Shown here: positions 20,783 to 21,639 of the stretch, piece by piece
Layout: each line of letters opens with the position of its first letter
Numbering within the stretch: position 1 is the stretch's first letter
Origin: Actinoplanes sp. KI2
Lineage (GTDB): Bacteria; Actinomycetota; Actinomycetes; Mycobacteriales; Micromonosporaceae
Direction of reading: 5' to 3'
DNA: 64,000 bases
Assembly: GCF_025630775.1 (NCBI RefSeq)
Contig: NZ_JAOSZE010000005.1
Location: 124,001 to 188,000, forward strand
Notes under the pieces: model-generated
The model's input: the letters and a program-made list of their open reading frames with translations, nothing else
What the model was told of the DNA's origin: nothing
The model's database searches: none
Position numbers and translations under genes: made by a program

Positions 20783-21406
20783 TCAACTGGTGGCCGGCTG
20801 GGCGCCCCCCGCTTCCTGACTCTCCGCCAGGATCCGATCCGCCACCTCACGCATCGTCATCCGGTGGTCCATCGCCGTCCGCTGAATCCACTTGAACGCC
20901 TGCGGCTCGGTCATCTGGTACTTGGTCATCAGCTCGCCCTTGGCGCGCTCCACCGACTTGCGCGTCTCCAGCCGCTCGCTCAGGCCGGCGACCTCGGACT
21001 CCAGCGCCGCGATCTCCGCGTACCGGGACAGGGCGATCTCGATCGCCGGCACCAGGTCCGACTTCTGGAACGGCTTCACCAGGTACGCCATCGCGCCCGC
21101 CGCCCGCGCCCGCTCCACCAGGTCACGCTGGCTGAACGCGGTCAGGATCACCACCGGTGCGATCCGGCCACCGGCGATCCGCTCGGCGGCCGCCAGGCCA
21201 TCCATGATCGGCATCTTGATGTCGAGAATCACGAGGTCCGGCCGGAGATCCTCGGCCAGGCGCACGGCGGTCTCGCCGTCACCGGCCTCCCCGACCACGT
21301 CGTAGCCCTCCTCGACCAGCATCTCGGCCAGGTCCAGACGGATGAGGGCTTCATCCTCGGCGATCAGCACCCGCTTGCGATCGGCCCCAGCCTGCGTGTC
21401 GGCCAC
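20783..21406 (-). CDS. pdtaR: ANTAR-domain response regulator, PdtaR type
   Basis: The 207-residue protein has an N-terminal receiver domain with acidic pocket EDE (17-19), phosphoacceptor Asp62 in ILDIKMP, and Lys in LVKPFQKSDL. A short coiled segment follows, then a C-terminal ANTAR RNA-binding domain (SVERAKGELMTKYQMTEPQAFKWIQRTAM). It matches mycobacterial Rv1626 (PdtaR), which prevents termination at specific two-hairpin RNA sites when phosphorylated by the PdtaS kinase. The kinase is not in the window. It starts with GTG at 21406. Its position between pyk and polA agrees with mycobacterial gene order. Confidence 0.93.
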   Translation of the reverse strand: MADTQAGADRKRVLIAEDEALIRLDLAEMLVEEGYDVVGEAGDGETAVRLAEDLRPDLVILDIKMPIMDGLAAAERIAGGRIAPVVILTAFSQRDLVERARAAGAMAYLVKPFQKSDLVPAIEIALSRYAEIAALESEVAGLSERLETRKSVERAKGELMTKYQMTEPQAFKWIQRTAMDHRMTMREVADRILAESQEAGGAQPATS

Positions 21407-21535
21407 GGAACCCCTACCCCCAACGCTCCCGAAGTCGCGACACCCCGGTATGTGGGTACCGCCGCCCTAAGCGTAGTAGGTAGGCTGTGGGAAGCTCATC
21501 GTGGCGTGGACAACTCGCGCGGGATGAGTTTGCTG

Positions 21536-21609
21536 GCCCCTGTATTCCAACCGGCAGAGAAGATGGTCTCAAACACCATACAGTGTGGGTTCGAATCCCA
21601 CCGGGGGCA
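21536..21609 (+). tRNA. tRNA with anticodon CAA (leucine codon UUG) but short variable loop
   Basis: A full cloverleaf can be drawn. The acceptor stem GCCCCTG (21536-21542) pairs with CGGGGGC (21602-21608), with A73 as discriminator. The D arm has a 3-bp stem and a loop containing GG. The anticodon stem ATGGT/ACCAT surrounds loop CTCAAAC, so the anticodon is CAA at 21570-21572. The T arm is GTGGG-TTCGAAT-CCCAC. CCA is not encoded. The variable region (21580-21584) has only five bases, whereas bacterial tRNA-Leu normally has a long variable arm. Either this is an atypical tRNA-Leu or a tRNA of unknown charging. Its stems are intact, so it does not look decayed. Confidence 0.85.
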
Positions 21610-21639
21610 CAAAAACCGTCGTACCCACGCGCAATGATT

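Follow-up and report, generated by a model that had tools for sequence, protein, structure and literature searches.

A leucine tRNA gene of Actinoplanes with a class I variable loop, very probably the ordinary reader of UUG

The gene at positions 21536-21609 of the analysed stretch of Actinoplanes sp. KI2 DNA (64 kb in length, referred to below as the window) is very probably an ordinary UUG-reading leucine tRNA gene, belonging to a bacterial group in which the long extra arm of this tRNA is absent. Judged from its sequence, the product would be an elongator tRNA that receives leucine from the ordinary LeuRS and reads UUG, and we assign this interpretation a probability of roughly 0.9. Leucylation, UUG decoding and any history of arm loss are what we infer; the gene itself is already annotated in public genomes. 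According to the standard rule, bacterial leucine tRNAs are class II (PMC7609411).

Structure of the tRNA

Read base by base, the forward strand at 21536-21609 holds an intact tRNA of 74 nt with anticodon CAA and a five-base variable loop. The features of the locus are:

21536..21609, + strand: class I-shaped tRNA-Leu(CAA) (base reading, ARAGORN, Rfam)
21536..21542, + strand: 5' strand of the acceptor stem GCCCCTG/CGGGGGC, partner 21602-21608, with one U-G pair (base reading; pairs counted in the covariation test)
21545..21561, + strand: D arm with a 3-bp stem TTC/GAA (10-12 with 23-25)
21549, 21550, 21553-21554 and 21556, + strand: A14, A15, G18G19 and A20a, a leucine-type D arm (base reading)
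21563..21579, + strand: anticodon arm, stem ATGGT/ACCAT, loop CTCAAAC
21570-21572, + strand: anticodon CAA, followed by A37 (21573) and C38 (21574) (base reading, ARAGORN)
21580..21584, + strand: variable loop ACAGT, 5 nt, positions 44-48, with U48 at 21584
21585..21601, + strand: T arm GTGGG-TTCGAAT-CCCAC (base reading)
21609, + strand: discriminator A73 (base reading)
20783..21406, - strand: divergent neighbouring open frame, presumably pdtaR, a name that follows the original prediction

ARAGORN calls a tRNA-Leu with anticodon caa at 21536-21610, and Rfam family RF00005 matches 21536-21609 at 54.1 bits, well above its gathering score of 29. The variable loop is of class I length (4-5 bases) and falls short of the 10 or more bases of a class II variable arm. 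The combination of a CAA anticodon with a short class I loop, which had been proposed from the letters of the DNA, is thus borne out by both programs and by the base reading. A D stem of four base pairs is typical of class I tRNAs; here, three pairs are clear in the covariation set, and RNAalifold adds a fourth, C13 with G, across a bulge. The 3' CCA is not encoded. By ARAGORN and Rfam the gene is the sole tRNA of the window, which therefore holds no dense tRNA cluster, and no further RNA of a known family was found there at the Rfam threshold. Position 38 is a C, so the molecule does not carry the complete A36A37A38 motif that PMC9336784 gives for targets of MiaA.

The only CAA tRNA of its genome

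We ran the stretches of all 66 Rfam tRNA matches of the genome through ARAGORN, and the window tRNA is the only CAA tRNA among them. Neither this inventory nor a search with a pattern for long-armed CAA tRNAs found a long-armed tRNA-Leu(CAA) in the genome. The window tRNA is therefore not a second one, and the original prediction, which saw in it a second and non-canonical reader of UUG, is not supported. The long-armed leucine tRNAs of the genome have the anticodons UAA, CAG, GAG and UAG, and the variable arms of these class II molecules measure 15-17 bases, as against five in the window tRNA. In seven genes of the window, 14 of 252 leucine codons are UUG and none is UUA. Two further short-armed leucine tRNAs, with anticodons CAG and GAG, lie beside a tRNA-Thr on contig C165 (L057); since the assembly consists of 201 contigs with 7.05% contamination, this contig could be foreign in origin. 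A short-armed GAG and CAG pair also occurs among other tRNAs in five genomes of the same genus (G001, G002, G003, G006 and G011).

Inventories of three other genomes gave the same picture for CAA. Planktophila (38 tRNAs in a 1.3 Mb genome) has short-armed CAA and UAA tRNAs next to long-armed UAG and GAG; M. rhizamassiliense (47 tRNAs) has short-armed CAA and UAA and long-armed UAG, GAG and CAG; and in S. aureocirculatus (67 tRNAs by Rfam, 66 by ARAGORN) the CAA tRNA is short-armed and the other four leucine anticodons are on long-armed tRNAs. None of the three has a CAA tRNA besides the short-armed one, whose uniqueness is thus shown in four genomes.

Streptomyces provides a further argument for decoding. 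A single Leu CAA gene is listed for each of six Streptomyces genomes, in a table that also gives TAA as able to read TTG (PMC4932002), and S. coelicolor can grow without bldA, its only UUA tRNA (PMC2000904); UUG should consequently be read there by the CAA tRNA. The CAA tRNA is short-armed in the six Streptomyces-titled records among the matches listed, which are other records than the S. coelicolor gene itself.

Distribution in the order and the phylum

In a set of 20 genomes, own genome included, a DNA similarity search found a match in 13, and a pattern for tRNA-Leu(CAA) of either shape combined with ARAGORN found the short-armed form in 15; G006 has a long-armed CAA tRNA, and the pattern found none in G001, G002, G003 and G011. 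A pattern scan of public genomes returned at least 119 stretches. Among the matches listed (80 titles), 78 are Actinobacteria, and the remaining two are metagenome bins of a planctomycete and of Treponema; ARAGORN recognises tRNA-Leu(CAA) in 113 of the 119 stretches and makes no call in six, and the 113 called loci comprise 66 distinct sequences. The tRNA of Actinoplanes locus L106 is identical to that of the same-genus genome G005 (L006). Two metagenome bins labelled Bifidobacterium breve and Streptomycetaceae (L129 and L131) carry a Planktophila-like tRNA, and may for that reason be mislabelled or mixed.

We made a covariance model, R1, from 55 sequences. Four of 50 diverse picks (L108, L125, L147 and L151) do not enter it, as they stem from tRNA arrays or non-actinobacterial records; nor do L014 and the alignment A1 rows with anticodon UAA, CAG or GAG. 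Within the order, R1 detects the window tRNA or a close relative of it in 183 of 199 genomes at an E-value of 1e-15, and 26 new loci fetched from this search comprise 24 CAA and 2 UAA tRNAs. The tRNA-Leu(CAA) of this order is usually short-armed. Across the phylum, at the same E-value, a match is present in at least 79 of 298 genomes, a lower bound because only 16 candidates were scored per genome; alternatively, the short-armed trait may not be phylum-wide.

In the own genome and the loci of three relatives, R1 gives short-armed leucine tRNAs 73.7 bits or more, and the next tRNA, a tRNA-Lys, 65.4 bits. In other relatives the scores go down to 65.3 for short-armed tRNAs that have other anticodons or come from arrays. 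The tRNA-Lys score bears on how the molecule arose. A class I tRNA may have been recruited to leucine identity, rather than a class II tRNA having lost its arm, with the same function as a result; R1 indeed places the tRNA-Lys well above the class II leucine tRNAs of the own genome, which score 47.7 bits and below. However, the D arm is in the leucine layout, with the one extra base A20a found in class II leucine tRNAs, and 74 bases are few for a tree that would separate recruitment from arm loss. We regard recruitment as possible, at odds well short of even.

Long-armed UUR readers and genomes without the gene

The long-armed CAA pattern matches in 7 of the 199 genomes; six of the matches, from two genera, are tRNAs by ARAGORN and one has no ARAGORN call. 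A long-armed CAA tRNA is present in G006 (L214) and in six genomes belonging to genera g37 and g23 (L221-L226). Retention, reversal and transfer are possible explanations for a long-armed CAA tRNA in these few relatives. By pattern only, a long-armed UAA tRNA is present in 43 of the 199, comprising 38 of the 40 genomes of the own family, all four of family f12 and one other. An R1 match together with neither a long-armed UUA nor a long-armed UUG reader was found in 148 of the 199, a count over three tables; divergent genes may have escaped the patterns. At least two R1 matches occur in 135 of these 148, and where the second short-armed copy was read (G013, G019, G120, G187 and M. rhizamassiliense) it is UAA.

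At an E-value of 1e-15, R1 has no match in 16 of the 199 genomes. By pattern, 14 of the 16 have a long-armed UAA tRNA, which we infer may wobble to UUG in genomes lacking an R1 match; G138 and G032 have no R1 match and no long-armed CAA or UAA pattern. With a looser cut-off applied to five of the 16, four again had no match and G166 gave only a UAG tRNA. Among genomes of the own genus, no CAA tRNA was found in G001, G002 and G011 by pattern and ARAGORN or by an R1 recheck; the CAA copy of G003 is solely inside a tRNA array (L261), and in G006, beyond its long-armed CAA tRNA, the cut-offs applied revealed no short-armed counterpart. Genomes without an R1 match, the array-only copy of G003 and the long-armed CAA tRNA of G006 together indicate that the short-armed CAA gene is replaceable.

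Covariation and genomic neighbourhood

In 54 distinct relatives, 98.5% of 1080 cells pair. Of the 20 pairs, 17 change on both sides, compared to a mean of 10.1 in shuffles, and pairing falls to 35-52% when the partners are slid. The stems had been taken to be maintained, with compensatory substitutions in relatives named as support for function, and these figures bear that out.

Conservation near pdtaR in other Actinobacteria was found as well. In 99 of the 113 loci among the matches listed, the tRNA has a pdtaR homologue nearby (identity of 45% or more across 120 residues), at distances of 316-1006 bases centre to centre, and some of the 14 loci without one sit near the ends of fetched stretches. 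Such very stable closeness to pdtaR, which we take to carry an RNA-binding ANTAR domain, would fit a main role of the tRNA outside translation, for instance in donating aminoacyl groups or in acting together with this regulator. Several results speak against such a role and make it improbable: even the small Planktophila genome has no other CAA tRNA, and long-armed CAA tRNAs replace the short-armed one in some genomes, which fits decoding. Long inverted repeats upstream (at least 8 pairs) are not commoner than chance either, occurring in 6 of 111 loci against 7, 7, 4, 6 and 3 in five shuffle sets (two of the 113 loci were dropped, their upstream stretch being too short). An inverted repeat at 21437-21462, between pdtaR and the tRNA, has 7 of 9 pairs in the window and 9 of 9 in L002; it is common to genomes of the genus and not general. 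Scans for sigma-70-like promoters and for terminators returned none.

Leucine identity features

In E. coli, leucine identity is conferred by A73, A15-U48, G18G19 and A20a, and the long arm is unneeded, whereas leucine identity in the archaeon H. volcanii includes the long arm (PMC9976931). The window tRNA has A73, as do all 66 distinct relatives among the matches listed; A15 with U48 and U8 with A14; and G18G19 with A20a, which a simple parse recovers in 65 of the same 66 relatives. Among the DNA similarity matches and the C165 pair taken together, U48 is invariant in 14 of 14. The constancy of U48, A37 and loop length in the 66 relatives is no test, because these were built into the search pattern.

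We surveyed the tRNAs of four genomes for the full identity set (including U8, A14 and the extra D-loop base). It occurs in 18 of 21 distinct leucine tRNAs and in none of 190 distinct non-leucine tRNAs. The three leucine tRNAs that lack it, all by the D-loop criterion, are the C165 CAG tRNA and the Streptomyces CAA and UAA tRNAs. The smaller set of A73, A15 and U48 is present in 10 of the 190 non-leucine tRNAs, tRNA-Lys, tRNA-Ala and tRNA-Arg among them. By its bases, the molecule thus combines a class I loop with a core of the leucine type (D stem of 3 bp, A15 opposite U48, A20a, A73). Since the E. coli determinants sit in A73 and the core formed by D, T and hinge, not in the long arm, LeuRS would be expected to accept the short-armed tRNA despite its class I shape, and charging by LeuRS is probably the route by which it is aminoacylated. 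Charging with another amino acid, which would make UUG ambiguous or reassigned, would suit the class I shape, and the closest non-leucine tRNA by R1, the tRNA-Lys of the own genome, shares A73, A15 and U48. This is very unlikely, however, given that none of the 190 non-leucine tRNAs has the full set and that the short-armed tRNA is the sole CAA tRNA in four genomes.

Relation to known leucine tRNAs

The window tRNA shares A73, U8, A14, A15, U48, G18G19 and A20a with the class II tRNA-Leu of the E. coli type, and differs from it by the missing long variable arm. M. tuberculosis leuV (Leu_CAA) and leuX (Leu_TAA), readers of UUG and UUA, are both listed at 74 bp, like the window tRNA, and the CAA transcript is modified by MiaA in vitro (PMC9336784). 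The comparison is by listed length alone, their class being unremarked in the part of that paper available; the M. rhizamassiliense counterparts are short-armed as read. Human mitochondrial tRNA-Leu(UUR) likewise has no long arm, and its identity rests essentially on A73 and A14 (PMC9976931). It differs in being served by a mitochondrial LeuRS and in the partly unfolded anticodon arm of its transcript, and no common origin is implied. A cluster-borne tRNA-Leu(TAG) of M. mucogenicum and relatives has a short variable loop too (PMC6582537); in contrast to the window gene, which stands alone and is the only CAA copy found, it is a cluster copy beside a normal long-looped one.

In the openly accessible literature searched, we found no description of class I tRNA-Leu as a lineage-wide trait or of class I chromosomal UUR tRNAs of Actinobacteria, and none is contained in the available parts of PMC7609411, PMC5700317, PMC6985099, PMC12772374, PMC6265470, PMC12803027 and PMC5966550. 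This silence is a weak sign that the shape change is new as a lineage trait. If the UUR leucine tRNAs of a large actinobacterial lineage do break the class II rule, recognition by LeuRS there would have to work without the long arm, the lineage would offer natural variants for testing what the arm does, and shape-based tRNA annotation would need an exception. The finding also bears on why mobile tRNA arrays carry oddly shaped leucine tRNAs.

Short-armed leucine tRNAs in arrays and phages

Relatives carry short-armed leucine tRNAs with anticodons GAG, CAG, CAA and UAG, in arrays or alone. Similar DNA is present in 28 phage records, and the 15 among the matches listed are annotated as tRNA-Leu; phage Bonray has annotated leucine tRNAs of 74 and 75 bases, GAG and CAA, beside an 86-base CAG. 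There are two matches in plasmid records, one of them 11.9 Mb long. That such tRNAs occur in arrays and phages might suggest that the window tRNA is a decayed relic or a stray array copy, which its lone position in a conserved place, its intact stems and their covariation render most improbable.

The tRNAs of arrays frequently show differences in their variable arm, and the arrays have been described as a putative antidefence system (PMC12803027). Building on these remarks, we tentatively suggest that the actinobacterial LeuRS serves two architectures; that in most of the order UUA and UUG depend on short-armed tRNAs; and that the type moved to phages and arrays with GAG, CAG, UAG and UAA anticodons, where it would form a parallel leucine set that may escape nucleases directed against long-armed host tRNAs. 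We consider this doubtful, though possible.

The arrays in C165 (L057) and at L253-L264 contain short-armed tRNA-Leu(GAG) and tRNA-Leu(CAG), and several of them also hold oddly shaped tRNA-Thr(CGT) and tRNA-Pro(TGG). A lone short-armed tRNA-Leu(UAG) lies at L265 (G006) and at L258 (G166), each in a fetched stretch without another tRNA. A dense tRNA array of the own genome (C122:70951-72126, L051) includes a tRNA-Cys(GCA) of 85 bases by ARAGORN, whose variable arm is apparently long, a swap in the opposite direction to that of the leucine tRNA.
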